Notes under the pieces: model-generated
Database searches by the model: none
Told to the model about the DNA's origin: nothing
The model's input: only the letters and a program-made list of their open reading frames with translations
Shown: one piece after another, positions 9,766 through 54,712 of the stretch
Position numbering within the stretch: the stretch's first letter is position 1
Layout: each line of letters opens with the position of its first letter
Assembly: GCF_019602855.1 (NCBI RefSeq)
Contig: NZ_CP080766.1
Location: forward strand, 1,054,001-1,118,000
DNA: 64,000 nt
Reading direction: 5' to 3'
Source of the DNA: Cupriavidus pinatubonensis
GTDB lineage: Bacteria > Pseudomonadota > Gammaproteobacteria > Burkholderiales > Burkholderiaceae
Position numbers and translations under genes: made by a program

Positions 9766-9780
9766 GATCGGTTCGATAAT

Positions 9781-11163: not shown

Positions 11164-11173
11164 GTTGGCTCCT

Positions 11174-12829: not shown

Positions 12830-12867
12830 GTGTCATGCACCGGAATGGCGACGCGCACAAGGGCTTC

Positions 12868-13119: not shown

Positions 13120-13188
13120 GTGTCGTCCTGCGTTCTACGCCTTTGATGGACCGGTTTGCACGCTCACTACCAACGCGAAGCGCTCCCG

Positions 13189-33110: not shown

Positions 33111-33446
33111 GCACAGCGCAACAGCTTCTTCAAGACCGTCTCACATCCAGTGACCGTAAGCGTGCTATAGGCGACATCTCCCAAGGTATTCGCGAGCTGC
33201 TGCCAAGGGTCGGGTAGCGCCGACCGGCGCCCTCCCCCCGGACACCTGAAGTCAGCATCGACCACTGACCAGCGCATTCAAGATGGATGCGCGATTACCG
33301 GCCCGCACCTTCAAGCGCATGATCAGCATGCCGGCGGCCCAGGTCAGCGTCCTGCGCAACTCGTCGTTATTCAGCCGATTCGTTCAAGCTTCCAGCAATC
33401 AGCGGCCCTACACTGGCGTCTCGTTTCAACCGAAAGGAGAGCCACC
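33111..33446. other. Stretch without a supported gene
   Basis: No complete gene is supported. The right end holds the promoter and the AAGGAGAGCCACC ribosome-binding site of the Cys-rich gene. Confidence 0.4.
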
Positions 33447-34752: not shown

Positions 34753-36222
34753 TCATTCAACAGCCTTGACCATGTCCTCGACCACCTTCTTGGCGTCGCC
34801 GAACACCATCATGGTCTTGTCCATGTAGAACAGCTCGTTGTCGAGGCCGGCGTAGCCGGCCGCCATCGAACGCTTGTTCACGATGATGGTCTTGGCCTTG
34901 TACGCCTCCAGGATCGGCATGCCGGCGATCGGTGATTTCGGATCGGTCTTGGCCGACGGGTTCACCACGTCGTTCGCGCCGAGCACCAGCACCACGTCGG
35001 CCTGGCCGAACTCGCTGTTGATGTCTTCCATCTCGAAGACCTGGTCGTAGGGCACCTCGGCCTCGGCCAGCAGCACGTTCATGTGGCCCGGCATGCGGCC
35101 CGCCACCGGGTGGATCGCGTACTTCACGGTCACGCCCTTCTCGGTCAGCTTTTCGGTCAGTTCCTTGAGTGCGTGCTGGGCGCGCGCCACTGCCAGGCCG
35201 TAACCCGGCACGATGATCACGGTCTCGGCATTGCCCATCAGGAACGAGGCGTCATCGGCGGAGCCCGACTTTACGTTGCGCTGCACTTGCGAACCGCCTG
35301 CTGCGCTCGCTCCCGCATCGCTGCCGAAGCCGCCGAGGATCACGTTGAAGAACGAACGGTTCATCGCCTTGCACATGATGTACGAGAGGATGGCACCGGA
35401 CGAACCCACCAGCGAACCGGCAATGATCAGCATCGGGTTGTTCAGCGAGAAGCCGATACCGGCGGCCGCCCAGCCCGAGTACGAGTTCAGCATCGACACC
35501 ACCACCGGCATGTCGGCGCCGCCGATCGGGATGATGATCAGCACGCCGAGCACGAAGGCGATGGCCAGCATGACGAGGAACGGCGTCCACTCCTGCGTCA
35601 TGAAGAACGCAATGCCGAAGCCGACCATGGCGACGGCCAGCGCCAGGTTCAGCATGTGCTGGCCCGCGAACACAACGGGGGCACCCTGGAACAGGCGGAA
35701 CTTGTAGCGACCTGCCAGCTTGCCGAAGGCGATCACGGAACCGGAGAACGTGATGGCACCGACGAAGCAGCCGATGAACAGTTCGATGCGGTTGCCCATC
35801 GGAATCTCATGCGAGCCCGCCGGCGCAATACCAAAGGCGGAAGGTTCCGCCACCGCGGCCACCGCAATGCACACCGCCGCGAGACCGATCAGCGAGTGCA
35901 TCGCCGCGACCAGTTCGGGCATCTTGGTCATCTCGACCTTCTTTGCCACGTAGGCGCCGATGCCGCCGCCGACGACCAGGCCAGCCAGGATCAGCGCAAG
36001 GCCAGACCCGGCTGTCGTGCCGCTACCGGCAGCGAGGAACTCGTTCTTGAGCTTGAGGATCAGCGCCACCGTGGTGAGTGCCGCCACCGCCATGCCGATC
36101 ATGCCGAAGGCATTGCCCTTGCGGGCCGAAGCCGGGTGCGAAAGCCCTTTGAGGGCCTGGATAAAGCAGACCGACGCGCCCAGGTAGAACAGCGTCACGG
36201 TATTCATGGACAGTCCGTTCAT
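34753..36222 (-). CDS. pntB: NAD(P) transhydrogenase subunit beta
   Basis: This 489-residue protein is PntB. The first 265 residues or so form about 9 membrane helices (domain II part), and the C-terminal domain III binds NADP(H), with the GYGLAVARAQ motif near 335, HPVAGRMPGHMNVLLAEA and LVLGANDVVNP near 410. The enzyme couples proton re-entry to NADPH formation. Its ATG overlaps the TGA of pntAb by 4 bases (36219-36222) with GGAG upstream, so translational coupling supports this start over the in-frame ATG at 36207. Confidence 0.96.
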   Translation of the reverse strand: MNGLSMNTVTLFYLGASVCFIQALKGLSHPASARKGNAFGMIGMAVAALTTVALILKLKNEFLAAGSGTTAGSGLALILAGLVVGGGIGAYVAKKVEMTKMPELVAAMHSLIGLAAVCIAVAAVAEPSAFGIAPAGSHEIPMGNRIELFIGCFVGAITFSGSVIAFGKLAGRYKFRLFQGAPVVFAGQHMLNLALAVAMVGFGIAFFMTQEWTPFLVMLAIAFVLGVLIIIPIGGADMPVVVSMLNSYSGWAAAGIGFSLNNPMLIIAGSLVGSSGAILSYIMCKAMNRSFFNVILGGFGSDAGASAAGGSQVQRNVKSGSADDASFLMGNAETVIIVPGYGLAVARAQHALKELTEKLTEKGVTVKYAIHPVAGRMPGHMNVLLAEAEVPYDQVFEMEDINSEFGQADVVLVLGANDVVNPSAKTDPKSPIAGMPILEAYKAKTIIVNKRSMAAGYAGLDNELFYMDKTMMVFGDAKKVVEDMVKAVE

Positions 36223-36584
36223 CGCGGCATCTCCACCAGTTCTCCGCCGGCGTGCGCGGGCGTCTTTGCGGGCTGCGCCTCGGCCTTCACCTTCGGCGCC
36301 TTCTTGCGGAACATCTCTAGCATGCGTTGCGTGACGAGGAAGCCGCCGAACACGTTGACCGCAGCCAGTGCCACCGCAAGCGTGCCCATCGCGCGGCCCA
36401 CGCCGCCTTCAGTCAGGCCAGCGGCCAGCATCGCACCGACGATGATGATGGCCGAGATCGCATTGGTTACCGCCATCAGCGGCGTGTGCAGCGCGGGCGT
36501 GACCGTCCACACCACGTGGTAGCCCACGTAGATCGCCAGCACGAAGATGATCAGGTTGATCACCGTGTGGTTCACCATTTCCAT
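36219..36584 (-). CDS. pntAb: NAD(P) transhydrogenase subunit alpha, part 2 (membrane)
   Basis: This 121-residue protein forms the membrane part of the alpha subunit, with about three helices (VINLIIFVLAIYVGYHVVW, the LMAVTNAISAIIIVGAML region, AVALAAVNVFGGFLV). In enterobacteria it is fused to PntAa. The split three-gene form seen here is common in many proteobacteria. The C-terminal tail is Lys/Pro-rich. It is coupled to pntB by a 4-base overlap and lies 10 bases after pntAa. Confidence 0.95.
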   Translation of the reverse strand: MEMVNHTVINLIIFVLAIYVGYHVVWTVTPALHTPLMAVTNAISAIIIVGAMLAAGLTEGGVGRAMGTLAVALAAVNVFGGFLVTQRMLEMFRKKAPKVKAEAQPAKTPAHAGGELVEMPR

Positions 36585-36594
36585 GGTTGTCTCC

Positions 36595-37713
36595 TTAACC
36601 GGCCAGCGCCGCTTCTTCGCGCCGCGTCATCAGGCAAGCCGCGACGATGTCATCTTCGAGGTTCAGCGTGAACTGGCCCTCCTTGTCGATGACCAGCTTG
36701 AGAAAGTCCAGCACGTTGCGGGCATAGAGCGCCGAGGCGTCGGCCGCGACCATGCTGGCCAGGTTGGTGTGACCGACGAAGGTCACCCCATGGCGCTCGA
36801 CCACTTCATCGGCCACGGTCAGCGGGCAGTTGCCGCCTTGCGCGGCCGCGAGATCCACCACCACCGAGCCCGGTTTCATCTCCCGCACGGTCGCTTCCTG
36901 CAGCAGCACGGGTGCCTGGCGACCGGGGATCAGCGCGGTGGTGATGATGATGTCGGCCTGCCTGGCGCGCTCGTGCACCAATTCGGCCTGGCGGCGCATC
37001 CAGTCCGGCGGCATCGGCCGGGCATAGCCGCCCACGCCCTGCGCGATTTCGCGCTCTTCATCGGTGATGAACGGCACGTCCAGGAACTTGCCGCCGAGCG
37101 ATTCGATCTGCTCCTTCACCGCCGGGCGCACGTCGGACGCCTCGATCACCGCGCCCAGGCGTTTGGCCGTGGCGATCGCCTGCAAGCCCGCCACGCCGGC
37201 GCCGAGGATCAGCACGCGCGCCGCCTTGACGGTGCCCGCGGCGGTCATCAGCATCGGCATGAAGCGCTGGTAGTAGTGCGCGGCCACAAGCACGGCCTTG
37301 TAGCCGGCGATGTTCGCCTGCGAGGACAGCACGTCCATGCTCTGCGCACGCGTGGTGCGCGGTGCCGCTTCGAGCGCGAAGGCGGTGATGCCGGCGGCGG
37401 TCATGCGCGCGTTGTTCTCGGTATCGAACGGGTTGAGCATGCCCACCAGCACGGCGCCGGACTTCATCTGCGCCAGTTCGGCGCTCTCAGGTGCGCGCAC
37501 CTTGAGCACGAGCGGCGCGCCGAGCGCGTCGGCGGCGGTGCCGATCGTCGCACCGGCCGCCTCATAGGCGCTATCGGGCTGGCTGGCACGCAAGCCCGCG
37601 CCTGCCTGCACCACGACCTTGTGGCCTTGTGCGACGTATTTCTTGACTGTCTCCGGCGTAGCGGCGACGCGTGATTCGCACGCATGCGTTTCTACGGGCA
37701 CTCCGATATTCAT
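36595..37713 (-). CDS. pntAa: NAD(P) transhydrogenase subunit alpha, part 1 (NAD-binding)
   Basis: This 372-residue protein is the NAD(H)-binding domain I of transhydrogenase, related to alanine dehydrogenase. It starts MNIGVPVETHACESRVAATP, has QSMDVLSSQANIAGYKAVL near 125, the Rossmann motif LILGAGVAGLQAIATAKRLG near 170 and TALIPGRQAPVL near 265. It is the first gene of pntAa-pntAb-pntB. The operon likely starts just upstream of 37713; no unusual feature is seen. Confidence 0.96.
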   Translation of the reverse strand: MNIGVPVETHACESRVAATPETVKKYVAQGHKVVVQAGAGLRASQPDSAYEAAGATIGTAADALGAPLVLKVRAPESAELAQMKSGAVLVGMLNPFDTENNARMTAAGITAFALEAAPRTTRAQSMDVLSSQANIAGYKAVLVAAHYYQRFMPMLMTAAGTVKAARVLILGAGVAGLQAIATAKRLGAVIEASDVRPAVKEQIESLGGKFLDVPFITDEEREIAQGVGGYARPMPPDWMRRQAELVHERARQADIIITTALIPGRQAPVLLQEATVREMKPGSVVVDLAAAQGGNCPLTVADEVVERHGVTFVGHTNLASMVAADASALYARNVLDFLKLVIDKEGQFTLNLEDDIVAACLMTRREEAALAG

Positions 37714-37820: not shown

Positions 37821-38585
37821 TCAGATTGTCAGGCCACCGTCGACTACAATGCATTCGCCATTGGTATAGCTCGAAGCATCCGACACAAGATAGAGCACCG
37901 TGCCGGCCATTTCGCGGGGCTCCGCGTGACGACGCAGCGGGATCTCGGCGAGCCATCGCTCATAGATTGCCGGGTCCTCGAACAGCGCACCCGAAAATTT
38001 TGTCCTTGTGAGGCCAGGAAGCAGCGCGTTCACCCTGATGCCGAGCGGCCCGCACTCCTTCGCGAACGCCTTCGTCATGTTGACGACCGCGGCCTTCGTG
38101 ATTGAGTAGATGCCCTGCTTTTCGCCTGGCTGCAGCGCGTTCACCGACGCGGTATTGACGATCGCGCCGCCGCCTTGCGCCTTCATCATCCTGCCGGCTT
38201 CGACTGACATGAAGAAGTAGCCGCGCACGTTCACTTCGACCGTCTTCTCGTAGGCGCCAAGATCGGTGTCGAGGATGTGGCCAAAATAGGGATTCGCCGC
38301 CGCGTTGTTAACGAGGATGTCGAGACGGTCGTGCTTGCTGCGGATATGCTCGAACACCGCGGCAACATCCTCCATCCGCCCGACATGGCACGCCAACGCC
38401 TCCGCCTGGCCGCCCGCCTTGACAATCTCGTCGGCGACAGCCTGACAGTCATCAAGCTTTCGGCTCGACACGATCACGTACGCGCCCTGCTCAGCGAGCA
38501 GCTTCGCAATTTCCTCGCCTATGCCTCGGCTCGCGCCGGTCACGAGGGCGGTCTTTCCGGTCAAGTCGAACAGATTCGTTGCCAT
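37821..38585 (-). CDS. Short-chain dehydrogenase/reductase
   Basis: This 254-residue classical SDR has the cofactor motif TGASRGIG near residues 14-21, LVNNAAANP near 88-96, and the catalytic Ser-Tyr-Lys as NTASVNAL and YSITKAA near 155-160. The length is standard. The ATG at 38585, with GGAGG 8 bases upstream, was preferred to an ATG five codons earlier. It lies 77 bases downstream of a phosphotransferase gene on the same strand, a pairing often seen with acyl-CoA dehydrogenases. The substrate is unknown. Confidence 0.92.
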   Translation of the reverse strand: MATNLFDLTGKTALVTGASRGIGEEIAKLLAEQGAYVIVSSRKLDDCQAVADEIVKAGGQAEALACHVGRMEDVAAVFEHIRSKHDRLDILVNNAAANPYFGHILDTDLGAYEKTVEVNVRGYFFMSVEAGRMMKAQGGGAIVNTASVNALQPGEKQGIYSITKAAVVNMTKAFAKECGPLGIRVNALLPGLTRTKFSGALFEDPAIYERWLAEIPLRRHAEPREMAGTVLYLVSDASSYTNGECIVVDGGLTI

Positions 38586-38662: not shown

Positions 38663-39694
38663 TCAGCCTCGCGCATCGATCACGCGCACGGCCTCTTCGG
38701 CCAGCATGCCCGCCATTTCACCGACTTGCAGGGCAGCCGTGCTGGACGCATTGCCCTTCAGCGCGCGAGCCTTCACACCCTGCGCGATCGCAGCGAGCCT
38801 GAAAAAGCTGAACGCAATATAGAAATGCCAGTCGCGGATTGGTTCGATGCCGCGCAGCTCGCAATAGCGCGCGACAATTTGCGTTTCCTGCGGCACGCCG
38901 AGCTCAACGCGATCCCTACCCGCAAGTCCGGGGACGCGGCCGTCGGACGGCAGCCGCAGGCACATGCAGAAGTACGCGAGATCGGCGAGCGGATTGCCCA
39001 GCGTCGACAGTTCCCAGTCGAGGACCGCCTTCACGCGGTAGCTATCGCGCTCGAACATTACGTTATCCATCCGGTAGTCGCCATGCACAAGCGTCGGCGG
39101 ACCAGCGTCTTCGGGGCACGCACTTGGCAGCCAGTCGATTAGGGTTTCCATCGCGTCGAGCCGCTCGGTCTCTGCCGCTCGGTACTGTTTCGTCCAGACG
39201 CCGATCTGGCGCTCGAAGTAATTGCCATGCCGTCCGAAGTCAGCAAGTCCGACGGCTTCAATGTCGATGTCATGGAGCACGGCCATTGTTCGCAAAACTG
39301 CGTCGTAGCAGGCGGCGCGATCCTGCTGCGGCAACTCAGGCAGGGACGGATTCCAGAAGATCCGCCCATCCTCGAAGCTCATCACATAGAACATGCTGCC
39401 AATTACGTCGCAGTCCACGCAAAGGTGATACGGGTGCGCGACAGGGACCTTGGTCCTGGACAGGGCGGTCAGGACTCGAAACTCACGATCGACAGCGTGG
39501 GCGGACTTCAGCAGTTCGCCAGGAGGCTGCCGCCTGAGCACATATCGACCGCTGCGCGCTTGCAGCAGAAAGGTAGGATTCGACTGGCCGCCGGCGAACT
39601 TCTCAGCGTGCACAGGTCCGTCGAAACCAGGCAGGTGGTCTTCGAGATAGCGCGCCAGAATTGCGGTATCGAGTGGATCGGAGATCTTCTTCAT
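38663..39694 (-). CDS. Phosphotransferase (APH family, ACAD10/11-like)
   Basis: This 343-residue protein has the aminoglycoside-phosphotransferase/choline-kinase fold. It shows a nucleotide-binding start (KFAGGQSNPTFLLQ and YVLRRQPPGELL near 30-60), the catalytic loop LVHGDYRMDNVMF near 202, and the metal-binding segment AVLDWELSTLGNPLADL near 225. This subtype resembles the kinase domain fused to acyl-CoA dehydrogenase in ACAD10/11, which phosphorylates hydroxyacyl-CoA compounds. Here it stands as a separate gene before an SDR, so a role in hydroxy-acid or lipid breakdown is inferred. Confidence 0.88.
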   Translation of the reverse strand: MKKISDPLDTAILARYLEDHLPGFDGPVHAEKFAGGQSNPTFLLQARSGRYVLRRQPPGELLKSAHAVDREFRVLTALSRTKVPVAHPYHLCVDCDVIGSMFYVMSFEDGRIFWNPSLPELPQQDRAACYDAVLRTMAVLHDIDIEAVGLADFGRHGNYFERQIGVWTKQYRAAETERLDAMETLIDWLPSACPEDAGPPTLVHGDYRMDNVMFERDSYRVKAVLDWELSTLGNPLADLAYFCMCLRLPSDGRVPGLAGRDRVELGVPQETQIVARYCELRGIEPIRDWHFYIAFSFFRLAAIAQGVKARALKGNASSTAALQVGEMAGMLAEEAVRVIDARG

Positions 39695-39827: not shown

Positions 39828-42134
39828 TCACCTGACGATCTCCGGTGGCTCGAAGCAGGTTGTCGTCGGTAGAACCCCGGCATAGCGCTCGATCTGGACA
39901 AGGCATGAATTCGCTGCGCTGCCCTGCGCGATTTCCGATGTGCCAACATCGCGCGTCAACACATTGGGGTTGCCATGCTTATCCAAAGGTGGACCATCTC
40001 CATCACCAAAGGCCAGGTCCAGCCAAGCGCCTGTGGCCATTTGCACCACCCCAGGAATCACGTCATCGGACACCACCACACCCGCGAGACAACTGCCTCG
40101 CGCATTGAATACGCGAACGATCATTCCGTGTTCAATGTTTCGGCTCGATGCATCGATTGGGTGAATGCGTATTGGCTCCCTGTCAGAGATCTTCAATTTC
40201 CTGCTGTGCGGCGCATGGTCATATTGGCTGTGCAGCTTGGATGCTGGCTGGTTCGAGAGTAGATGCAAAGGAAACTCGAGCACCTTAGGAGACCCCAGCC
40301 ACTCCTCGGGCTCGATCCACACCGGATGCCCGGGCTGGGCCTTGATCCCGAAGTCGTGAATGGTCTGTGAAAAGATCTCAATTCGACCAGACGGCGTCTG
40401 CAAGGGCTCTCCCACCGGATCACGGATGAACTCCGAGAAAACGGTGTGGGATTCTCTCGTCGGAGCCTCAATCATTCCCTTCGCCCAGAATTCATCGAAG
40501 TGCGGGAAGCTCAGGCCCTGTTCGTCGCCCTGCTCTTTGATCCGTGCATAGAAAGATCGCAGCCAATCCTCCTCGCTCTTTCCTTCCGTGAACTTCTTCA
40601 CAAATCCAAGTCGGGCGGCGAGCTCGGAAAAAACCTCATAATCATTACGCGCGTTGGCATGCGGTTTCACATGTGCTGCTGACGCGATAATGAAAGGGTC
40701 TGTACTGGTGCCAGCGATATCGTTTCGCTCGTAAGCGACTGTCGTAGGGAACACGATGTCCGCGTGCTTTGCGGTTGCTGTCCACCAGGGCTCATTGACG
40801 ATGATGGTTTCTGGCACCGCCCATGCCTTTCGGAGTCGGTTCAGATCTTGATGGTGATGAAACGGGTTGCCCCCGGCCCAATAGATGAGCCGTATGTCGG
40901 GATAGGTCAGGGTCTCGCCGTTGTAACGGTAGGATTGCCCCTTGTTGAGTAGCATGTCCGAAATGCGCGCCACGGGAATAAACGAATCCACATGGTTCTT
41001 GCCCTGCGGCAGCGCGGGGATCTTCACCGTGATAGAGTCAAGCCCGATACCGTTGATGGCGGCATAGCCGAACCCAAATCCGCCGCCATCCAGGCCAATC
41101 TGGCCGATCATCGATGCAAGGGCCACTGTCATCCAATACGGTTGCTCGCCATTCTCGGCCCGCTGCAGCGACCATGACATGGTGATCATGGTCCGTTGCT
41201 GTGCCATATCACGCGCGAGATGCGTGATGCCCTGTGCGGAAATGCGGCATATGGACGATGCCCACTGCGGCGTCTTTGGCACACCGTCGGACTCGCCCAA
41301 CAGGTAATGCCGGAAGCGGTCGTATCCGACCGTGTAGCGGTCCAGGAAGGCGCGGTTGACCAGGTTCTCGGCTTCCAGAACATAGGCCAGGCCAAGCATG
41401 AGGGCTACATCAGTCTGCGGACGTATGGGAATCCATTCGCATGGTGCGCTGGTGTCATCCTGGATCGGGCTGATAGATACCAGGCGCACTCCTGCCTGTG
41501 CGAGTTGCCCGAGTGTGTCGCGGTAGTGATGGCGTGTCACGCCACCGGAATTCATCTGAGCATTCTTTTCCGGCAATCCCCCAAACGCCACCAACAGTCG
41601 AGTACTTCGAACCATGGATTTCAGCGAGGTGTGCCTGTCCGCCAAGCTATGCATGGAGCCCACCACTCGGGGAATGATCACCTCCCCTGCGCCATAGCTA
41701 TATGAATTGACCGACCGCGTATAGCCGCCCAGAAGGTTCAGAAAGCGGTGAATCTGGCTTTGCGCGTGATTGAATCGCCCGGCGCTCGCCCATCCATAAG
41801 AGCCACCGAAAATCGCCGAGTTACCGTACGATGAGCAGACTCGCTGTAACTGCCCGGCGGCCATATCAAGGGCGGTATTCCAATCCACCTCGACAAATGG
41901 CTCGCGCCCTCGGCCCTCACCACTTGCCCGATGCTGCTTGTCGAGAAACGACTTTCGTATGGCAGGTGAGGCAACCCTCAACTTGGTGTGAGATCCATCG
42001 AGCTGCTCCCAGATGGGGGCCGGAGCAGGGTCGCCAGGCCAGGATCGAATGTTGGACACACGGCCTTGGTCCACGGTGACGTTGTAGGTGCCCCAATGCG
42101 TGGAGACCCACCGATTTTCTTGAACGGGCAACAT
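39828..42134 (-). CDS. Biotin-sulfoxide-reductase-like molybdoenzyme (BisC/DMSO reductase family)
   Basis: This 768-residue protein of the DMSO-reductase family is of the single-subunit BisC/TorA/DorA type. It lacks the N-terminal 4Fe-4S cysteines, has WGTYNVTVDQGRVSNIRSWP near 14-33, GGSYGWASAGRFNHAQS near 110-126 and the Mo-ligand region VNSYSYGAGEVIIPRVVG, with Ser near 146 as the probable ligand. Conserved MGD-binding segments (GGNPFHHHQDLNR near 425, VNEPWWTATAKHADIVFPTT near 450) are present. No Tat signal is seen, so it is cytoplasmic like BisC. It should reduce an S-oxide or N-oxide. It is the last gene of the operon with the MFS transporter, two PhyH dioxygenases and RidA. Confidence 0.92.
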   Translation of the reverse strand: MLPVQENRWVSTHWGTYNVTVDQGRVSNIRSWPGDPAPAPIWEQLDGSHTKLRVASPAIRKSFLDKQHRASGEGRGREPFVEVDWNTALDMAAGQLQRVCSSYGNSAIFGGSYGWASAGRFNHAQSQIHRFLNLLGGYTRSVNSYSYGAGEVIIPRVVGSMHSLADRHTSLKSMVRSTRLLVAFGGLPEKNAQMNSGGVTRHHYRDTLGQLAQAGVRLVSISPIQDDTSAPCEWIPIRPQTDVALMLGLAYVLEAENLVNRAFLDRYTVGYDRFRHYLLGESDGVPKTPQWASSICRISAQGITHLARDMAQQRTMITMSWSLQRAENGEQPYWMTVALASMIGQIGLDGGGFGFGYAAINGIGLDSITVKIPALPQGKNHVDSFIPVARISDMLLNKGQSYRYNGETLTYPDIRLIYWAGGNPFHHHQDLNRLRKAWAVPETIIVNEPWWTATAKHADIVFPTTVAYERNDIAGTSTDPFIIASAAHVKPHANARNDYEVFSELAARLGFVKKFTEGKSEEDWLRSFYARIKEQGDEQGLSFPHFDEFWAKGMIEAPTRESHTVFSEFIRDPVGEPLQTPSGRIEIFSQTIHDFGIKAQPGHPVWIEPEEWLGSPKVLEFPLHLLSNQPASKLHSQYDHAPHSRKLKISDREPIRIHPIDASSRNIEHGMIVRVFNARGSCLAGVVVSDDVIPGVVQMATGAWLDLAFGDGDGPPLDKHGNPNVLTRDVGTSEIAQGSAANSCLVQIERYAGVLPTTTCFEPPEIVR

Positions 42135-42170
42135 GGAAGACTCCTTACTGCAGGGCAGGTGAAAGCTGAT

Positions 42171-43619
42171 TCATGCGGCAGCGTGCGCGCCTGACTTGGT
42201 GGGGTCGCCTGACGTCCCAAGGCCCAATTCTTCGTCGGCTACTGCTTCCAGCGAACGGTTGGTGGTGCGCGGGCCGAAGATAAGCACGGGGATGGCGAAG
42301 GCGATGTAGATGGCGGCGGCGGTCCACGTTACGTACTTCAGGCCACCCGCAGTGACCAGCGCCGCGCCCATCACGCCGGACACCACGCCGCCGACCCGCG
42401 CACCCGACATCACGATGCCATTGCCCAAGGCACGCAACTGCGTTGGCATTGTCTCGGGGATATATGTGTAGTAGGCGTTGAGTACGAAGCCACTGAAGAT
42501 GGCGAGCGCCCCGCCGATAACGGCCACGGCCCAATAGCTGGTTGAGAGGCCCAGCACAACCAACGCGAGCGCGCAGAACACCGACATGCAGAGGATGGTG
42601 TTCTTGCGTTCCCACCGATCCAGCAGTCGCATGGCAATGAAAGGCATTACACCGTAGACCACGACCCAGATGAACATGATGAAATATGCGTCCTTCTGGG
42701 GGTATTTGAGACCATACACCAGCGCGTAGATGCTCCAGTTGATCCAAGTGTAGTACGCCAGGTACACCCCGAAATAGGACACAAACAGAACGATCAGGTT
42801 GCGCAAGACCCCCTTGTTCCGCAGCAGGTCCCGCAAGGTGGCATTCGCTGCGCCGCCTTGCGCTGCCAGCGGATTGGGGTCGTCGAGCGGCCCCTTGCGC
42901 GACGCGCGCGCTTCCAGGCTGGCGACAATCTGCGCTGCGTGCTCGAGCTTCCCGCGAGAGACGCACCAGCGCACTGACTCCGGCAGATAAAAATACACGA
43001 GGGGCGCAATCAGCAAGCCGATGCCGCCGGCCAAGAACAGGTACCGCCAGGTGTTCGGTCCGCCCGTAGGCAGGTAAAACATGGCCAATGCCGCCGCAAT
43101 CACTGCCGAGGCTGTGTAGCCCATCGTCACGAGCGAGAGAAAACGTCCGCGTGCATGGCGTGGGAACATCTCGGCGACGTAGACGAGCAGCACCGACGTG
43201 GCCGCCTGCACGCCCAGTCCAGTCACGAAGCGGGAGGTCAGGATCATCTCGTACCCTGGGACGAACGCCGTCACGATCACGCCGAGCGAGTACATGACCG
43301 TGCCCCACACCAGCACTGGACGACGCCCCACCCTGTCGGAGAGCCAACCGCCGGCCAGCGCGCCAATCACCATCCCCACGTAGAGGGCGCTGCTGATAAC
43401 CCCGATCTGCTCGGTACTCATGCCCGTGTGCGCCTTGATGGTCGGCGCAGCGTACGAAAAGATGGCGTTGTCGTAATACTCCAGCATCAAGTTGATTGCC
43501 AGCAATGCCGCCCAGGCGTAATGCGTGCTCATGGTTGGCAAGCGGTCGAACCGCGCCAACAGATGGGAGGAGCGGGAGTTACTGTCTGAGAATGACTTCG
43601 TTCCGTCGATGTGACTCAC
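42171..43619 (-). CDS. MFS transporter
   Basis: This 482-residue protein of the major facilitator superfamily has 12 predicted helices. The loop 2-3 motif GGWLSDRVGRRPVLVWG is near residues 94-110, RFVTGLGVQAATSVLLVYVA near 140 and the second-half repeat is near 310. It resembles the metabolite:H+ symporter (sugar-porter/AAHS-like) group. It lies 36 bases upstream of the molybdoenzyme and 115 bases downstream of the second PhyH gene, so it is part of the same operon. It likely imports the operon's substrate. Confidence 0.92.
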   Translation of the reverse strand: MSHIDGTKSFSDSNSRSSHLLARFDRLPTMSTHYAWAALLAINLMLEYYDNAIFSYAAPTIKAHTGMSTEQIGVISSALYVGMVIGALAGGWLSDRVGRRPVLVWGTVMYSLGVIVTAFVPGYEMILTSRFVTGLGVQAATSVLLVYVAEMFPRHARGRFLSLVTMGYTASAVIAAALAMFYLPTGGPNTWRYLFLAGGIGLLIAPLVYFYLPESVRWCVSRGKLEHAAQIVASLEARASRKGPLDDPNPLAAQGGAANATLRDLLRNKGVLRNLIVLFVSYFGVYLAYYTWINWSIYALVYGLKYPQKDAYFIMFIWVVVYGVMPFIAMRLLDRWERKNTILCMSVFCALALVVLGLSTSYWAVAVIGGALAIFSGFVLNAYYTYIPETMPTQLRALGNGIVMSGARVGGVVSGVMGAALVTAGGLKYVTWTAAAIYIAFAIPVLIFGPRTTNRSLEAVADEELGLGTSGDPTKSGAHAAA

Positions 43620-43734
43620 GGTGTGTCTCCGGTTGGCGCTGTCGCCGTTATTGGTCTTCGGTACTTCAGTGATGCGGCCACCTCCACGCGGAATGCGGAC
43701 ACAACCGCCCTCCTCCCATCAAACGATCCTGGTA

Positions 43735-44565
43735 TCAACGCAGTTGTGTGCACCATGCGGCGCGAAACGGCTCACCTGGCATCAGCGAGGGATCATTGAG
43801 CGCGCTGATGTCGTAGGGGTAGTTGCAGCCCCCGGTCGGCAGCGGCCGGTAGAAGAGCTTGTCGCCGAAGAACCGGTAGACGAGTGTGTGGCGATCGGGG
43901 CAGTCCGCGCTGACGGGGGCGCCGCCGTGCAGCGCACCGGAGTGGAATACCAATGCGTCGCCCAATTCCAGGTCCCATGAAAGAACATCCCACGAGTTCG
44001 GATCTTTCGCCCGTTCCGCCTCGATATCCGGAAGATCCGGCCAGTCGGTGTTGAGCCACAACGGCTTAGTGGGCTTTCCCGGGTCTGTATAAGAGTTGCC
44101 GTTGTACTGAATGCCGAGATGCGAGCCGCGCACGACTTCGAGCGCGTTCTTGCGAGGTATCCGTTCAAAACAGGTCCAGATGTTGAGCATCTGCGGCCCG
44201 CTTACTGGTGTGTACGAGTTGTCCTGATGCCACGGCGATCGCCCGGCCTTCCCGCCCTTTTTTATGAAGATCTCCTCGCCTTTGAACCATACATGCTGGG
44301 AGTCCCATAGCGACGCCACGAATTCATCAAGCACCAGTGCCTTGATCGTCGCGATATGCACATCGCGGTTGGCAATGTTGCCGTAGTCGTTGAAATGCTC
44401 GTCCGGCGTGCCTTTGAAGATGTAGCCGTGCTGCGGACTCGGGTGTTCAATCCCATAATCGAAAGCCTCGCGCATCCGCTTGAGCCCTTCAGGAGAAAAC
44501 AAGCCTCGTGCAACGAAGGCGCCGTCCCGTGCCAGGTCCAGCTTCATTTGTTCAGTCACCTGCAT
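43735..44565 (-). CDS. Phytanoyl-CoA dioxygenase (PhyH) family oxygenase 2
   Basis: This 276-residue Fe(II)/2-oxoglutarate-dependent oxygenase of the PhyH family has the iron-binding HxD in PWHQDNSYTPVSG near 122 and the distal His in GALHGGAPVSADCPDRHTLV near 215-235, where the nearby Arg would bind 2-oxoglutarate. The start at 44565 has GGGGAGG 6 bases upstream. It is a paralogue of the other PhyH gene in the operon, sharing KKNSLEIVRGSHLGIQY-like text. The two presumably hydroxylate related positions or successive products. Confidence 0.9.
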   Translation of the reverse strand: MQVTEQMKLDLARDGAFVARGLFSPEGLKRMREAFDYGIEHPSPQHGYIFKGTPDEHFNDYGNIANRDVHIATIKALVLDEFVASLWDSQHVWFKGEEIFIKKGGKAGRSPWHQDNSYTPVSGPQMLNIWTCFERIPRKNALEVVRGSHLGIQYNGNSYTDPGKPTKPLWLNTDWPDLPDIEAERAKDPNSWDVLSWDLELGDALVFHSGALHGGAPVSADCPDRHTLVYRFFGDKLFYRPLPTGGCNYPYDISALNDPSLMPGEPFRAAWCTQLR

Positions 44566-44579
44566 GTGAGCCTCCCCAG

Positions 44580-44990
44580 TCAATCGGCACCGCAGCCGGC
44601 CACCGCGACGGCGCGAACTTCGACAAGAAACGCCGGATTCGCCAGTTGGGTCACGCCTACCGCAGTCCAGGAGGGGTAGCGCTCAGGCAGGAACTCGTCC
44701 TTCGCCCTCACGAACGCTTGAATGTCCGGGCCATGCAGGTCGATGTGGAAAGTCACGATCTCGACGATGTCCGCCATCGTCGCACCCGCCTCCTCCAGCA
44801 CGCACTTCAGGTTGTTGAAGGCCAGTCGAGCCTGCTCGGCCATGCCCTCGCCCGGCTTGCCAGTGGCCACATCAAGGCCCACCTGACCCGACACCCAGAT
44901 CATGTCGCCGACACGGGTGGCGGACGAGAAATGCAGTTGGTCGTAATGCCGCTCCTTGAATGGCGCGGGGCTAATCATTTTTCGCTTCAC
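44580..44990 (-). CDS. RidA-family protein
   Basis: This 136-residue protein is a Rid (YjgF/YER057c/UK114) family member: FSSATRVGDMIWVSGQVGLD near 21-40, VTFHIDLHGPDIQAF near 85 and a C-terminal AFLVEVRAVAVAG. The substrate-binding Arg, usually near 105 in R-A-V-V motifs, is represented by EVRAVAVAG near 127. RidA proteins hydrolyse reactive imines or enamines. Its place between two PhyH oxygenases (23- and 14-base gaps) suggests a nitrogen-containing substrate whose oxidation gives an imine. Confidence 0.9.
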   Translation of the reverse strand: MKRKMISPAPFKERHYDQLHFSSATRVGDMIWVSGQVGLDVATGKPGEGMAEQARLAFNNLKCVLEEAGATMADIVEIVTFHIDLHGPDIQAFVRAKDEFLPERYPSWTAVGVTQLANPAFLVEVRAVAVAGCGAD

Positions 44991-45013
44991 GATGTTGGTA
45001 CTCCGTAGTGATA

Positions 45014-45859
45014 TCAGACCCCGGCAACCTGGCGGAAGACCGGCGAGCGGAACGCATCGCCCTGATTGAGCTTGGCCATTTCTTTCTGGAAGAGCGGGCC
45101 GTTGCGGGCGTACTTGGGGTTGCAGGTGGGCAACTCGCGAAAGGTGGCGTCGTCACCGAAGAAGCGCAGCACCAGTGTGTGGCGGGTCGGGCAGTCGGCA
45201 TCGACCTGTGCACCGCCATGCAGAGAGCGCGGGTGCAGCAAGACGATGTCGCCAGGATTGATGTCAAAGGAGACGATGTCCCAGGAATTGGGATCCCGAG
45301 CAAGCTCGTTGTCGATGTGCGGGAGACGAGGATAGGTGCCATCGCCATAGAGCGGATCGGTCGGATCCTCGGCACTATCAAAGCTAGCGCCGTCGTACTG
45401 GATACCCAGATGTGAACCGCGCACGATCTCCAGCGAATTCTTCTTGGGCAGCTTCTGGAAACTGATCCAGGCATTGCCCCAATGGCGGCCGGCCCACGGC
45501 AGGTTCGCTGTGTCCTGGTGCCAGGGGCCTCGGCCGCTTTTTCCCCCTTCCTTGGCGAAGATCTCCTCAGCGAAGTACCAGACGTTTTTCGAGCCCCACA
45601 ATTCCTGGAAGATCTGGCCGAAAGGCAATGCGGCCGCCAGGTCATCCAGCTCGGACTTGGCTTCGGGGTTAGCAATGTCGATGTGGGTGTGCAACGTGGT
45701 GCCGATGAGGCCGCCCTTGTAGACGTGCGGGCCGGGGTTAGCCATGTCCCACTTGAAGCCGTCGTAGCACCGGGCCAGTTGCGCTTCGTTGAGGCAGTTC
45801 CTGAAGATAGTGACACCGTCGTTGCGGAACTGCTCGCGCATCTCGGGGGTGGTCAGCAT
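45014..45859 (-). CDS. Phytanoyl-CoA dioxygenase (PhyH) family oxygenase 1
   Basis: This 281-residue PhyH-family Fe(II)/2-oxoglutarate oxygenase has HxD in WHQDTANLPWAGRH near 130 and SLHGGAQVDADCPTRHTLVL near 230-250. The ATG at 45859 follows AAGGAGCTTCACT and was preferred to the in-frame 45889. It is the first gene of the five-gene minus-strand operon, facing three AAC-N4-GTT inverted repeats in the divergent region with the porin. Substrates in the family range from phytanoyl-CoA to small amines and ectoine, so none is assigned. Confidence 0.9.
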   Translation of the reverse strand: MLTTPEMREQFRNDGVTIFRNCLNEAQLARCYDGFKWDMANPGPHVYKGGLIGTTLHTHIDIANPEAKSELDDLAAALPFGQIFQELWGSKNVWYFAEEIFAKEGGKSGRGPWHQDTANLPWAGRHWGNAWISFQKLPKKNSLEIVRGSHLGIQYDGASFDSAEDPTDPLYGDGTYPRLPHIDNELARDPNSWDIVSFDINPGDIVLLHPRSLHGGAQVDADCPTRHTLVLRFFGDDATFRELPTCNPKYARNGPLFQKEMAKLNQGDAFRSPVFRQVAGV

Positions 45860-45938
45860 AGTGAAGCTCCTTGGTGGCTTGGACGGCACACACTCCCGTC
45901 TCTAAGATGATTCACTTTAGTCCTCGCCCGAGGTTAAC

Positions 45939-45954
45939 ACAACAGCCGTTTTGT
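45939..45954. promoter_or_regulatory. Operator-like inverted repeat 1
   Basis: ACAACAGCCGTTTTGT contains the inverted core AAC-N4-GTT with extended arms (ACACAAC and GTTTTGT). It lies 80 bases upstream of the first PhyH gene and shares the core with the two repeats to the right. Confidence 0.55.
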
Positions 45955-45974
45955 AAATACATTCCCATATTTGC

Positions 45975-45990
45975 ACAACATACGTTTTGT
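45975..45990. promoter_or_regulatory. Operator-like inverted repeat 2
   Basis: ACAACATACGTTTTGT is near identical to repeat 1, 36 bases away, sharing ACAACA and CGTTTTGT. The AAC-ATAC-GTT core is conserved. A pair at this spacing fits repressor binding at two sites. Confidence 0.55.
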
Positions 45991-46121
45991 GATATCGATT
46001 GTCATTGAGCGGCGGGCTAATGGGAAGTACTGGGCGCGTGCGGGAAGCCGCGTTTGCAACATCGCGCACTGCCATGCTGACGAAGAGCCTCCGCAGGGAA
46101 TACCCTCATTCTTCGTTAAAC

Positions 46122-46135
46122 ATAACGACTGTTAT
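46122..46135. promoter_or_regulatory. Operator-like inverted repeat 3
   Basis: ATAACGACTGTTAT is a perfect inverted repeat, ATAAC-N4-GTTAT, with the same AAC-N4-GTT core as the two repeats nearer the PhyH gene. The TetR protein encoded at 48071 is the nearest candidate binder. Confidence 0.45.
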
Positions 46136-46248
46136 TCTAAATTAGCGTTCGCTTCCGGACTACCTGTCAGGGGACGTCGACAGGGATGCGGCCGTGCGGG
46201 AGTGCTGTGACGGCTACGCAACTGCCCGGATCAGAGGATCAACCGTGC

Positions 46249-46407
46249 ATGAGTGCAAGCGCGAAGCTTTTCCCGCGGATCGAGAACCTGTCATTGACGA
46301 CTGTCTCAACCAAGGAAGCGCTGGCGCTGTGCAAAGTGGCGGCGTTCAGTCCAGGTATCGAAGTTCGTGCAGTGGCGGCGGCCGGCTTCGGCAAGACCGT
46401 CGAGTAA
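46249..46407 (+). CDS. Short frame before porin, RidA-tail-like
   Basis: This 52-codon frame ends SPGIEVRAVAAAGFGKTVE, recalling the RidA C-terminus encoded at 44580 (VEVRAVAVAG). It may be a decayed fragment of a Rid gene or a chance frame. It has no strong ribosome-binding site. Confidence 0.25.
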   Translation: MSASAKLFPRIENLSLTTVSTKEALALCKVAAFSPGIEVRAVAAAGFGKTVE

Positions 46408-46496
46408 AGGCAGTCTCGGTTCACATGACGCTATGTGCGCGCGACGGAGGCTCTTGCGCGCACCGGGCCCAATCCTATTTGAACGGAACATCGAGC

Positions 46497-47633
46497 ATGA
46501 AGAAGAAATGGCTGATCGCGCTAACCACACTTGGCACCGTAGCAGGCGTAGCCCAAGCTCAGTCCAGCGTCACGTTGTACGGCGTGCTGGACACGAACGT
46601 CGAAGTCGCCACGAATATGAAGGCGCCGAGCGGTGGCTCGGGTACCCGCTACGCGCTGAATGGCGGCGGCCTGTCCAGTTCGCGCTGGGGGCTGCGTGGG
46701 AACGAAGACCTGGGCGGCGGTCTGAGCGGTATCTTTGTTCTGGAAAGCGGCTTCAGCGCGGACGACGGCAAATCTCTGCAAGGCGGTCGTCTGTTCGGCC
46801 GTCAGGCATTCGTCGGCCTGCAGAACGCAACCTTTGGCAAGGTCACCTTCGGCCGCCAGTACACGTCGATGCTGGATGCATTGGCCCCCTTTTCGCCCGC
46901 TGCGCTGGCAGTCTTGTATGAGCCAGTCATCGCCCTGTTTGGCGCCGCCTACCGGCAAGACAATACGGTCAAGTACACCGGAACATTTGGGCCGCTTATG
47001 GTAGGTGCCCACTGGTCATTCGGTATTGGGCCCACCTTCAGCAGCCCGGGCGGCGTCAACATCAGTGGCAGCGGGGAGGTTCCGGGCCAGATTCGCCGCG
47101 ATAGCGGCTTCGGTGGCCAGACAACTTATCGTGCGGGCTCGTTCGGCGCCACGTTGTCCTATGATCAGGTCAATCCGAGCATTACCCGTAACGGTGCGCT
47201 CCTTGATATCGCCACCAGCAAAAAGGCTGCCGCCGCGGCCAGCTACGCCCTTGGCCCTATCCAAATCATGGGCGGCTATCGTTGGGGCAAAGCAGTCGCG
47301 TCCGGGCAGACGCTGGTGCGTGACGACTTGTATTGGGCAGGGGTTTCCTATGAGGCGGCACGTTCTCTCAGCTTGACGCTGGATTACTACTACCAAGCTT
47401 TCCACTCTTCGACAACGCCCGCATTGAAGCCGCCAGGCAACCCTTGGCAAGTCGCGTTCATCGTCGACTATAACTTGTCCAAGCGTACGGACCTATACTG
47501 GACCACGGTGTACGCCAAGAATTCCGGCCTGTGCCTGGATACCGCCTCCATTGGTTACGCTAATGGGTATCAGCCGGGAGGCACCAGGAACAATATGTTG
47601 GGGGCTGCTGTGGGCCTCCGCCATAAGTTCTGA
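46497..47633 (+). CDS. Gram-negative porin
   Basis: This 378-residue outer-membrane porin of the Burkholderiales type (OmpC/Omp32-like) has a signal peptide MKKKWLIALTTLGTVAGVAQA, then QSSVTLYGVLDTNVEV, the conserved SRWGLRGNEDLGGGLSGIF near 60 and a C-terminal strand ending GLRHKF with terminal Phe. The start at 46497 was chosen because the frame upstream lacks a signal peptide. It is divergent from the PhyH-RidA-MFS-molybdoenzyme operon and shares its regulatory region, so it likely admits that operon's substrate. An intrinsic terminator follows. Confidence 0.95.
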   Translation: MKKKWLIALTTLGTVAGVAQAQSSVTLYGVLDTNVEVATNMKAPSGGSGTRYALNGGGLSSSRWGLRGNEDLGGGLSGIFVLESGFSADDGKSLQGGRLFGRQAFVGLQNATFGKVTFGRQYTSMLDALAPFSPAALAVLYEPVIALFGAAYRQDNTVKYTGTFGPLMVGAHWSFGIGPTFSSPGGVNISGSGEVPGQIRRDSGFGGQTTYRAGSFGATLSYDQVNPSITRNGALLDIATSKKAAAAASYALGPIQIMGGYRWGKAVASGQTLVRDDLYWAGVSYEAARSLSLTLDYYYQAFHSSTTPALKPPGNPWQVAFIVDYNLSKRTDLYWTTVYAKNSGLCLDTASIGYANGYQPGGTRNNMLGAAVGLRHKF

Positions 47634-47664
47634 AAATAACTGAAGCACGGATGCCATCTTACTC

Positions 47665-47687
47665 GGGCACGTATGTGCCCTTTTCTT
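47665..47687 (+). terminator. Porin terminator
   Basis: GGGCAC-GTAT-GTGCCC followed by TTTTCTT, 32 bases after the porin stop, is a compact intrinsic terminator. Confidence 0.8.
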
Positions 47688-48070
47688 ACAAGCAGCAGAG
47701 GTCCCCTTATCGCAGATCCGTTGCTCGGCCACTGCGACTTGGCAATCGCGTAGGCTCCGCTACATTGCACCGATCGCTGCGGGAGTTCCAGTTTGCGAGG
47801 GACCCTTTTCCCATTGGAGGCTGGTTCATGGCAAAATTGACCGTCTGCCACAAGGCCGTGCTGATATCTCCTGTGCCATGCATCTGCAAACGCCTATCGA
47901 CTCATTGTCGATGACATGTCTTGTCGCTCTAGAGTCGGCGCAGTCCTTTCCTCAGTGCCCCATTGACGTGCCGGCTTTCCCGCAATGCGCGCAATGACGG
48001 CGTATTGATGAAACGAATGGTCAGAAGGAATGAGTACGCACGCGCCCCGTTGTTTGTGGATTCCCGACAG

Positions 48071-48745
48071 ATGCCAGAGAGAAAAATCAAGCCAAAACAC
48101 GACGATAGTCGGACCGATCAAGTCACGACCCGTGGCCGCCCTGCCGGTGACCGTGAAGCGAAGCGCCAGGAACTGCTGAAAGCCGCAGCATTGGTGATAG
48201 CGCGGGAGGGGTATGCAAAAGGATCATTGCGCTCAGTGGCACAACAAGCGGGTCATACGACCGGCGCCGTGACGTACTATTTTGCAAATAAGGAAGAACT
48301 CGTCGTTGCTCTACTAGAAAGCGCATTTGATCGCTACGATGCCATGCTCGAATCCGTTCGGCAAAGCGGCGATATTCATTCGCTTCTGGGTTGCTGGCTG
48401 CGACTGAATCAGCGCAGCGAAAGTTTCTTGCCTGAACTCTCCGAGTTGCTTGCGCAAGGCCGGTATGAGCCCGTCTTTGCTGACGTCATTGCCAGACGCT
48501 ACGCGCACTATCGACGAGTCTACGCGTCGATCCTCAAGACCGCACAGGAGCAAGGGACCGTTCGCCGCGATATTTCGGCTGACGTGCTGGCCGATCAACT
48601 GTGCGCCATGGGTGATGGCTGGATCCTAATGTACCCGGTCGAGCCAAAGCGATTCACACCCAAGCGTATCCAAGCGTTGATCGAAGCCTTAGGTGCCCTG
48701 ATCGCCCCCCCTTTCGCTCACCAGCCTCCCGCGAATGGCAGCTAG
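48071..48745 (+). CDS. TetR-family transcriptional regulator
   Basis: This 224-residue TetR protein has an N-terminal HTH (LLKAAALVIAREGYAKGSLR, SVAQQAGHTTGAVTYYFANK near 38-75) after a basic, disordered start (MPERKIKPKHDD), and a helical ligand-binding domain (about 90-210). The start at 48071 is uncertain; an ATG at 48008 would add 21 residues. It sits after the porin in the same direction, and the three AAC-N4-GTT repeats upstream are its best candidate sites. Repression relieved by the operon substrate is inferred. Confidence 0.88.
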   Translation: MPERKIKPKHDDSRTDQVTTRGRPAGDREAKRQELLKAAALVIAREGYAKGSLRSVAQQAGHTTGAVTYYFANKEELVVALLESAFDRYDAMLESVRQSGDIHSLLGCWLRLNQRSESFLPELSELLAQGRYEPVFADVIARRYAHYRRVYASILKTAQEQGTVRRDISADVLADQLCAMGDGWILMYPVEPKRFTPKRIQALIEALGALIAPPFAHQPPANGS

Positions 48746-52485: not shown

Positions 52486-53382
52486 CTATAAAGAAGATTG
52501 CAACGCCTCTACAAATACTCGCACAGCTATCGTCTGTTCACGACCTTTTAGCAACGCCAGCGAGAATTCGGCGCTATGGCTTAGAAACGCGGGATGTATC
52601 GCTCGCATCAGGTCTTGCTTGACCCACTGCAAGGCATAATGCTCCGGAAGGAACCCGATAAAGTTGCCTGACAAAACGAGGGTCGCGACCGCTTCCATGT
52701 GATGGACGGTGGCCGCTACTTTAAAGTTGCTAGCGTCGCTCAGCTCCCTGGATTCGCGCATATAACCCCGCGCAACGTAATCCAGCTTCTGCAAATCCTC
52801 TGTGTTGATGTCATTCGGAGCCGAATTGAAAAGAGGGTGGAGGTGGCTGCAGTAAAGACGTAGATTCTCTGTATAAAGTGGCAGGTACTTCAAACCTGGA
52901 TGCATAATTCGGAAGGGTCCAATGCCAACATGTATTCTCCGCTCAAGCACCGCAGCCTCGATCTCGTCTGGGGATTTGATTTCCATTTTCAAAAAGAGAT
53001 CACCCCCTTTTTTCTTGACGGCGCGGATCGCATCCGTAATTTTGGCCTGCACGTCGGTGATGGTGTTATCTACAACGCCAATTGCCAACTCGCCGCTAAT
53101 CTCATGACGTATGGCCCCGATGTCCGCCCGGAATTCTTCCACTGAGTTCAGCAAGCTCTCGGCCGCCTGATAAACAGAATAGCCCTCTTCGGTCAGATGG
53201 AAGCCCCGCCGACCGCGCTCGCATAGCCTTAGGCCCAGTCGCTTTTCGAGATCCGTCATGTGGGAGCTTATGGTGGACAGATTCATATTGAGCGCAGATT
53301 CCGCTGCTGAAAGACCTTTCAAGTCAGCAACCGTTTTGAATATGCGCAACAACCGTAGATCGACGTCGGTCATTCTGATCAT
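52486..53382 (-). CDS. LysR-family transcriptional regulator
   Basis: This 298-residue LysR protein has an N-terminal HTH (DLRLLRIFKTVADLKGLSAA then STISSHMTDLEKRLG) and an effector domain (about 95-290). It is divergent from the ureohydrolase-permease pair across a 260-base gap. Its base composition is lower in GC than that of most neighbours, with many AT-ending codons, which suggests acquisition from elsewhere. It probably activates the divergent genes in response to a guanidino compound, which is inferred. Confidence 0.9.
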   Translation of the reverse strand: MIRMTDVDLRLLRIFKTVADLKGLSAAESALNMNLSTISSHMTDLEKRLGLRLCERGRRGFHLTEEGYSVYQAAESLLNSVEEFRADIGAIRHEISGELAIGVVDNTITDVQAKITDAIRAVKKKGGDLFLKMEIKSPDEIEAAVLERRIHVGIGPFRIMHPGLKYLPLYTENLRLYCSHLHPLFNSAPNDINTEDLQKLDYVARGYMRESRELSDASNFKVAATVHHMEAVATLVLSGNFIGFLPEHYALQWVKQDLMRAIHPAFLSHSAEFSLALLKGREQTIAVRVFVEALQSSL

Positions 53383-53646
53383 ACTGATACTCCTCCATCC
53401 GCTGTCCGTGGGCTTGCACTAGTGGCTCCTACAGCTTACGTCGCATCGCCCCATGGACAGCCTAGCACGGCCGCCGACGTTGAATGGCAGATTGGAAAGG
53501 TTCGAGGAATCCAAAACTAAAGTTCGAGAAGTTCTGATTCAACATGTGTCACTCGCGTGCAAGACTAAATGGACGCCTATGGCGGATGGCCGGACCACAG
53601 CATCGGAGCGCCGGTTCCAATCGGACTAACTGCGAGGACCTTACTC

Positions 53647-54621: not shown

Positions 54622-54712
54622 CCTCCGAACATCTAGTCAGCGCCCAAAGAAATAGACTGCCAGCCGTCGACTGAGATCGACAGCTAGGTAAGCCTCTACG
54701 CAGGAGACAAAA

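Follow-up and report, generated by a model that had tools for sequence, protein, structure and literature searches.

The nicotine cluster of Agrobacterium tumefaciens S33 encodes 6-hydroxynicotine oxidase, 6-hydroxypseudooxynicotine dehydrogenase, a Rid6 protein, a major facilitator superfamily (MFS) transporter and a TetR regulator, and the nicotine dehydrogenase of this strain is a molybdenum enzyme. Its Rid6, from a subfamily with a variable residue at the position of Arg105 in Escherichia coli RidA, is predicted to clear an enamine or imine (PMC7688666), and the title of a later paper cited in PMC8552603 states that Rid enhances the dehydrogenase reaction. Arg105 is described as essential for imine hydrolysis and touches the substrate carboxylate in TdcF; Rid4 and Rid7 have tryptophan in its place, Rid5 and Rid6 a variable residue, and the functions of Rid4–Rid7 were completely unknown as of 2015 (PMC4433059). 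The arginine rule is also upheld in PMC5619798, PMC8113886, and PMC9714295. In the PhyH family, MysH is predicted to hydroxylate, and so destabilise, a glycine side chain (PMC10510106). An operon in which a PhyH oxygenase adjoins a Rid protein is found in the genome of Cupriavidus pinatubonensis (GCF_019602855.1; 7.55 Mb, 4 contigs), at contig NZ_CP080766.1, within positions 1,054,001 to 1,118,000 of the forward strand. This whole stretch of 64,000 nucleotides is called the window, and coordinates refer to it. The PhyH-Rid pair is conserved in many other genomes and probably forms the core of a route that degrades a nitrogen-containing compound. Five minus-strand genes occupy 39828–45889, with two plus-strand genes beside them:

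45014–45859, minus strand: PhyH1, first gene of the operon (open reading frame, ORF, may reach 45889; Pfam PF05721, E 4.7e-12)
44580–44978, minus strand: Rid protein of the Trp type (ORF 44580–44990; L-PSP, Pfam PF01042, E 2.5e-24)
43735–44565, minus strand: PhyH2, second oxygenase, from a separate subfamily (ORF 43735–44583; Pfam PF05721)
42171–43619, minus strand: MFS transporter, similar to aromatic acid/metabolite:H+ symporters (Pfam MFS_1, E 3.2e-55)
39828–42134, minus strand: molybdoenzyme similar to BisC and dimethyl sulfoxide (DMSO) reductase (Pfam PF00384 and PF01568; leader peptide not evident)
46497–47633, plus strand: Gram-negative porin, divergent from the operon (Pfam Porin_4, E 1.3e-44)
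48071–48745, plus strand: TetR regulator with a BetI-type C-terminal domain (Pfam TetR_N and TetR_C_6)

Outside the window, a Rid gene lies directly downstream, on the same strand, of 85 of the 93 distinct PhyH1-type genes, a count that leaves out identical copies and hits covering less than 60% of the query. These genes come from a scan of relatives with PhyH1 alone (best 80 of 101 relatives, 78 loci, numbered here with the prefix L; relatives below about 51% identity are missing), to which plasmid records found with the whole-operon DNA and sister-genome stretches found with PhyH1 were added. Among the eight exceptions (L059, L062, L065, L066, L073, L087, and two genes in L097), Rid is placed about 2 kb upstream on the opposite strand in L059 and L062 and two genes further on in L087, and a second PhyH1-type gene with its own Rid is present in L065 and L066. 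Six PhyH genes of other subfamilies from the same genus (L001, L002, L021, L022, L028, and L032) have no Rid match within their stretches of about 3.7 kb. The PhyH1-type loci span Pseudomonadota and Actinomycetota, and, within the window's genus, some PhyH proteins exactly match those of Cupriavidus numazuensis and C. lacunae. Porin homologues (65–68%) adjoin PhyH1-Rid in Cupriavidus loci, and TetR homologues (65–69%) are present in PhyH1-Rid loci. Neighbouring families were counted in 86 loci, leaving out duplicate PhyH proteins, PhyH2 loci, and the window; gene calling relied on a home-made codon score, which found no genes in the AT-rich L060 (outside the 86) and missed others, so these counts are lower bounds. 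A TetR from the same protein cluster as that of the window is called in 49 of the 86, and one recurring neighbour protein, c7, has no Pfam match. Judged by this gene context, the cluster is an accessory catabolic gene set with PhyH1-Rid as its core. At E ≤ 1e-90, 2 of 101 Variovorax genomes contain PhyH1, and of 35 further genomes in the window's genus, 4 have a copy at least 70% identical; this sporadic distribution fits horizontal spread, by which the operon may have been disseminated.

Several loci carry further arrangements. In Pseudomonas, L053/L098, L054/L089, and L055/L107 each combine two PhyH1-type genes of different clades with their own Trp-type Rids, about 13–16 kb apart on one contig, with genes for MAO and cytochrome c nearby; a chemoreceptor-type gene is an additional feature of L089 and L098. 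Variovorax boronicumulans (L048) and Alkalilimnicola ehrlichii (L056) have a common three-gene set near PhyH1-Rid (clusters c95–c97), whose last protein, of about 1,030–1,040 residues, perhaps belongs to a putative RND-type efflux system. Contig C182 of genome G019 seems to carry a decayed copy of the cluster near 247945 (L027, L045): PhyH1 is reduced to a fragment of some 58 residues (84% identity) next to an MFS match (38%), and a partial porin is found in the wider stretch together with TetR and NicA2-like genes.

His124, Asp126, His224, and Arg236 (numbering of the 291-residue PhyH1 ORF) are invariant in 101 of 101 aligned PhyH proteins, both window copies included; the HxD...H residues are presumably the metal ligands and the arginine the contact to 2-oxoglutarate, and the proteins have the residues of a PhyH Fe(II)/2-oxoglutarate oxygenase, which is their predicted function. 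The AlphaFold model of PhyH1 has a predicted local distance difference test score (pLDDT) of 94.5 (45-row alignment). Comparisons of sequence, profile, and fold all give MysH as its nearest solved structure. An alignment of 93 cluster Rids (84 distinct, duplicates included) with E. coli RidA and YjgH has tryptophan at the position of Arg105 in all 93, the window's protein included (Trp104 there), and Glu120 is likewise kept in 93 of 93; His16, His78, Lys93, Trp104, and Glu120 are among the positions invariant in all 84 distinct proteins. Of the marks of a RidA-type imine deaminase, the window's Rid possesses Glu120 and membership in the L-PSP family and lacks Arg105 and a sufficient TIGR00004 score (61.3 bits, below the cut-off of 106.25). 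The combination of tryptophan for Arg105 with a kept glutamate is the Rid4/Rid7 pattern, and YjgH (1pf5) is the sole solved structure at E ≤ 1e-12. Because the Arg105 position is occupied by tryptophan, a "RidA" function is unsupported by the sequence, and the role in imine removal that the earlier note had given for the family is unsafe here. Since the carboxylate-binding arginine is lost, the substrates might be ones without that carboxylate, which the tryptophan would fit.

It is unlikely that the Rid protein is a chaperone, RNA-binding or regulatory partner of PhyH1 rather than a pathway enzyme: E. coli RidA is annotated as a chaperone, and the Rid4–Rid7 proteins tested were without deaminase activity (PMC9714295), but invariance of Glu120, His16, His78, and Lys93 in 84 of 84 distinct Rids is more usual for a binding site. 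It is tentatively proposed, with rather more doubt than confidence, that PhyH and the Trp-type Rid make up a two-enzyme unit for the oxygenative cleavage of C–N bonds, in which PhyH would hydroxylate next to the nitrogen and the Rid would resolve carboxylate-free imines, enamines, or hemiaminals. If true, this would provide a function for Trp-type Rid proteins, to which the variant in the window would add a molybdoenzyme entry for N-oxides.

The neighbours of the pair suggest the class of the substrate. At least one of three flavoprotein families of amine or amino-acid oxidases is called in 76 of the 86 loci (MAO-like amine oxidase in 50, DAO-type oxidase in 39, and NicA2-like amine oxidase in 17), and a cytochrome c family in 46. 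As oxidase families surround the pair in so many loci, an amine or related nitrogen compound is likely; the substrate would likely contain nitrogen, and an amine appears more likely than an amino acid. Acyl-CoA ligases are found in 16 of the 86 loci, and relatives additionally contain thiolases and an acyl-CoA dehydrogenase; these enzymes suggest that a carbon skeleton is broken down later. Further neighbours in relatives comprise a DUF1329/DUF1302/RND set and a secretory lipase. An attempt to name the substrate by gene content failed, the neighbour set suggesting a hydrophobic skeleton and no more. A DUF1329-DUF1302-RND-YCF48 set is also encoded elsewhere in the same genome, on a 238-kb contig (L129, contig C3 130500–150400, at 1025–13211 of that stretch), where it adjoins an AraC-type regulator, a NicA2-like amine oxidase, a sulfatase, and a formylglycine-generating enzyme and represents a possible second catabolic cluster.

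The molybdoenzyme distinguishes the operon in the window from most of its relatives. Orthologues 84% identical are encoded in V. boronicumulans and Variovorax sp. 679 (L048 and its duplicate L049), where the order is PhyH1-Rid-MFS-BisC and the identities are 85% for PhyH1, 80% for Rid, and 79% for MFS. Linkage in other genomes, set beforehand as the test of the five-gene system, is thus observed for four of the genes and fails for the second PhyH. Among 300 genomes drawn from the order, with at most 3 candidates scored per genome, nine have a BisC match at E ≤ 1e-250; one of these is the own genome, and the other eight are all at or below 53% identity. Matches at E ≤ 1e-200 in plasmid records (146) are without exception under 60%, and of 16 genomes with a related PhyH1, five have a match at E ≤ 1e-150, the 84% type being present only in the two Variovorax. 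The BisC-like enzyme is therefore, in the sets searched, a putative marker of this operon variant. None of the three oxidase families is called at the Variovorax loci or in the window stretch, and searches of the two Variovorax genomes with the MAO-like and NicA2-like amine oxidases, one of them lacking a positive control, gave nothing at E ≤ 1e-20. The molybdoenzyme stands where most relatives have flavin oxidases, and it might replace them functionally.

The molybdoenzyme scores 965.3 bits against TIGR00509 (bisC_fam) and its Variovorax orthologue 947.4, both below the cut-off of 1017.55. A full-length alignment to DMSO reductase 1eu1 retains SYGW, presumably the typical motif, and the aligned serine, which is taken to be the molybdenum ligand, as expected for the DMSO reductase fold. 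It is decidedly unlikely that the module serves the repair of sulfoxides or of biotin or methionine oxides, or handles a sulfur compound, with the oxygenase pair separate. BisC-type enzymes reduce sulfoxides and the best PDB matches are DMSO reductases; against this, close BisC orthologues are found only within this operon type in the sets searched, and the relatives of the operon are rich in amine and amino-acid oxidase families.

PhyH2 appears to be a local addition. It is 40% identical to PhyH1 in the alignment, and the PhyH tree joins PhyH1 with the two Variovorax proteins (support 100/100), whereas PhyH2 falls into a four-member clade whose other three members are from the window's genus (PhyH1 was the query in other genomes). 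These relatives are located 3' of a YCF48-like gene in L043 and L044 and between SDR and APH genes in L042; PhyH2 is absent from both Variovorax operons. As its relatives lie in other clusters of the genus, PhyH2 seems to have been imported from a related cluster type, and a sequence of two oxygenases is not a conserved feature of the operon. The earlier note had envisaged a linear route, in which BisC removes an oxide, the two PhyH enzymes carry out successive hydroxylations, and Rid acts as a RidA-type imine deaminase. Such a route is quite unlikely: every gene is present in one run, and the Pseudomonas loci L053/L098, L054/L089, and L055/L107 carry two PhyH1-type genes, each with Rid, on one contig, but the Rid lacks Arg105 and stays at 61.3 against the 106.25 of TIGR00004, and PhyH2 belongs to a separate clade missing from the Variovorax operons.

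The arrangement of the operon itself is real. Pfam and the ORFs confirm all seven genes, with the families named in the earlier note and the contiguous minus-strand run. The likelier starts, picked from the sequence, are ATG 45859 for PhyH1 (with AAGGAG immediately 5'), 44978 for Rid, 44565 for PhyH2, 46497 for the porin, and 48071 for TetR; with these, the gaps between the five genes amount to 35, 14, 115, and 36 bases, matching the 14–115 bases claimed. The porin facing the operon and the TetR gene after it are also as described, both on the plus strand and ending at 47633 and 48745. For the MFS transporter, the best NCBIfam match is TIGR00895, at 180.9, below the cut-off of 418.55. Terminator-like sites between 39000 and 46500 number 4, against a shuffle mean of 5.4, which neither proves nor excludes a single transcript, and scans for promoters and terminators gave counts no higher than in shuffles.

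Between PhyH1 and the porin there are three operator-like palindromes:

45939–45954, minus strand: ACAAAACGGCTGTTGT, 0 mismatches to ACANAACRNNTGTTGT
45975–45990, minus strand: ACAAAACGTATGTTGT, 0 mismatches
46120–46135, plus strand: ACATAACGACTGTTAT, 1 mismatch

The inverted repeats that had been described as shared are thus real, in three copies, but confined to the intergenic region of PhyH1 and the porin: the final pattern has no site 5' of TetR (47634–48100, at ≤2 mismatches) and no other copy in the window at ≤1 mismatch. The palindromes were first spotted by eye and then tested in relatives; finders of inverted and direct repeats reported no useful operator. The exact stretches common to the two copies are shorter than the seed. 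A pattern built from the window only, the less circular test, occurs at 1.19 per kb 5' of PhyH and 0.017 per kb elsewhere in 36 related loci (hand-picked, duplicates included, L065 and L066 counted twice). The refined pattern, partly shaped on the test loci, lies 5' of 32 of 92 distinct PhyH genes, at 1.24 versus 0.016 per kb (about 75-fold), and is missing from all 20 mononucleotide-shuffled sets. In both tests, a palindrome that could be read in overlapping positions was counted more than once, which raises the densities and leaves the 32 of 92 unaffected. Sites are present in loci of Proteobacteria and of Nocardia, Rhodococcus, Tsukamurella, Saccharopolyspora, Streptomyces, and Pseudonocardia. 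The TetR protein might bind to this palindrome.

The same-strand run exceeds the left limit set in the earlier note and continues down to 34753:

38663–39694, minus strand: APH-type phosphotransferase (Pfam APH), probably also belonging to the cluster
37821–38585, minus strand: SDR oxidoreductase (NF005446, above its cut-off), probably also belonging to the cluster
34753–37713, minus strand: transhydrogenase genes, presumably pntAA-pntAB-pntB (labelled from sequence and recall), possibly mere neighbours

APH homologues (86%) are found in 2 of the 35 other genus genomes searched, both adjoining PhyH clusters, and a third genome has a 76% homologue; SDR homologues (82–92%) are located in the PhyH-cluster loci L041, L042, L059, L060, and L094 (L041 and L094 from the same genome). 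Since its homologues lie beside PhyH clusters, APH, and probably SDR, would belong to the cluster. The last gene of the pnt run has homologues in L005, L006, L035, L036, L037, L042, and L062 (L006 and L037 are the same locus), and the genome contains four other full-length relatives of pntB and one partial match; 34763–37671 (2.9 kb) is 97.4% identical to another chromosomal stretch. In view of these additional full-length copies, pnt was set aside as a specific pathway gene, and the pnt genes of the run may be mere neighbours. Beyond them, an integrase-core (rve) ORF at 32694–33170 is perhaps the trace of an insertion element, and on the other side of the operon, 52486–56185 encodes a LysR regulator, an arginase-family hydrolase, and a cytosine/purine-type permease, perhaps a cassette for a guanidino compound or ureide. 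Accessory regions mix genes, and close relatives of pntB occur at other places in the genome, as would be expected if the genes were chance neighbours with no common role; the 85 of 93 pairings, the Variovorax operons, and the density of palindromes 5' of PhyH make this hardly credible.

With the genes of the operon taken as a system, a TetR-controlled catabolic route can be outlined, in which BisC would reduce an oxide, PhyH1 would oxidize beside the nitrogen, and the Trp-type Rid would complete C–N cleavage; confidence and doubt in this outline are evenly balanced. The porin and the MFS carrier would take the compound up. The BisC-like molybdoenzyme, possibly the first to act, would reduce an N-oxide (or S-oxide) to the free amine or thioether, and PhyH1, using Fe and 2-oxoglutarate, would hydroxylate the carbon adjoining nitrogen. 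Rid might speed the breakdown of the resulting hemiaminal, imine, or enamine, by which the C–N bond would be cut and a carbonyl compound released. PhyH2, APH, SDR, and perhaps the transhydrogenase could handle compounds of the same substrate family, or the carbon skeleton at a later stage. The substrate, the order of steps, and the chemistry of Rid are all postulated. The interpretation in the earlier note is partly supported. The idea that the genes form a linked route dedicated to a nitrogenous compound is strongly supported by the PhyH1-Rid adjacency, the gene order in Variovorax, and the oxidase families around the pair.

Several observations weigh against this outline. In ten of the 86 loci, no member of the three oxidase families is called, and the own genome encodes a diverged amine oxidase (38%, on contig C3) and two DAO-type relatives (29% and 26%; the DAO search covered this genome only). 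The substrate is proposed from gene context, and deaminase activity is absent in the Rid4–7 proteins tested to date (PMC9714295, from 2022; PMC4433059). No upstream palindrome at ≤1 mismatch is found for 60 of the 92 PhyH genes; L053, L055, and L057, which are close Pseudomonas loci, are in this group. The linkage of BisC comes from three loci in two genera, with both Variovorax PhyH1 proteins identical, and the molybdoenzyme could serve an S-oxide repair unrelated to amines.

No description of the cluster was found in open-licence PMC papers on PhyH with Rid, amine oxidase or DUF1329/DUF1302. The cluster may mark a sporadic amine-catabolism module in soil bacteria and Actinomycetota, and its conserved partner enzyme, likely substrate class, and recurring regulatory site make the question of Rid4–Rid7 function testable. 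The components resemble known proteins to different extents. The molybdoenzyme shares the full-length match, SYGW, and the serine with the TorA/BisC/DMSO reductase family; it differs in being under the bisC_fam cut-off and in belonging to the subgroup of 84% identity that, in the sets searched, is found only in this operon type. MysH, from mycosporine biosynthesis, is of the PhyH family and the closest solved structure to PhyH1, with only about 20% identity in the structural alignment and a biosynthetic rather than catabolic role. The genes predicted for AphR in Burkholderia sp. 383 (DUF1302, PF07044, COG1033, COG4447, and an operon that includes a PhyH) belong to families like those of the DUF1329/DUF1302/RND/YCF48 clusters found here; their predicted role is perhaps in coping with toxic aromatics and solvent stress, and the PhyH-Rid pair is not named in the available part of the source (PMC6449761).

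The Rid proteins of the cluster are about 32–44% identical to E. coli YjgH, of the Rid4/Rid7 type, which has the same tryptophan; YjgH contains Arg and Phe where the cluster Rids have His16 (84 of 84) and Trp28 (83 of 84). They differ from the described Rid4/Rid7 proteins by adjoining a PhyH oxygenase, and the word dioxygenase is absent from the main text of PMC4433059. No pyridine-pathway genes are present among the annotated neighbours of the PhyH1-Rid loci. In the nicotine cluster of A. tumefaciens S33, as here, a Rid outside the Arg105 groups is located beside amine-oxidizing flavoenzymes, an MFS transporter, and a TetR regulator (PMC7688666, PMC8552603), whereas in the present cluster the PhyH oxygenase is central and the molybdoenzyme is of the oxide-reductase type.

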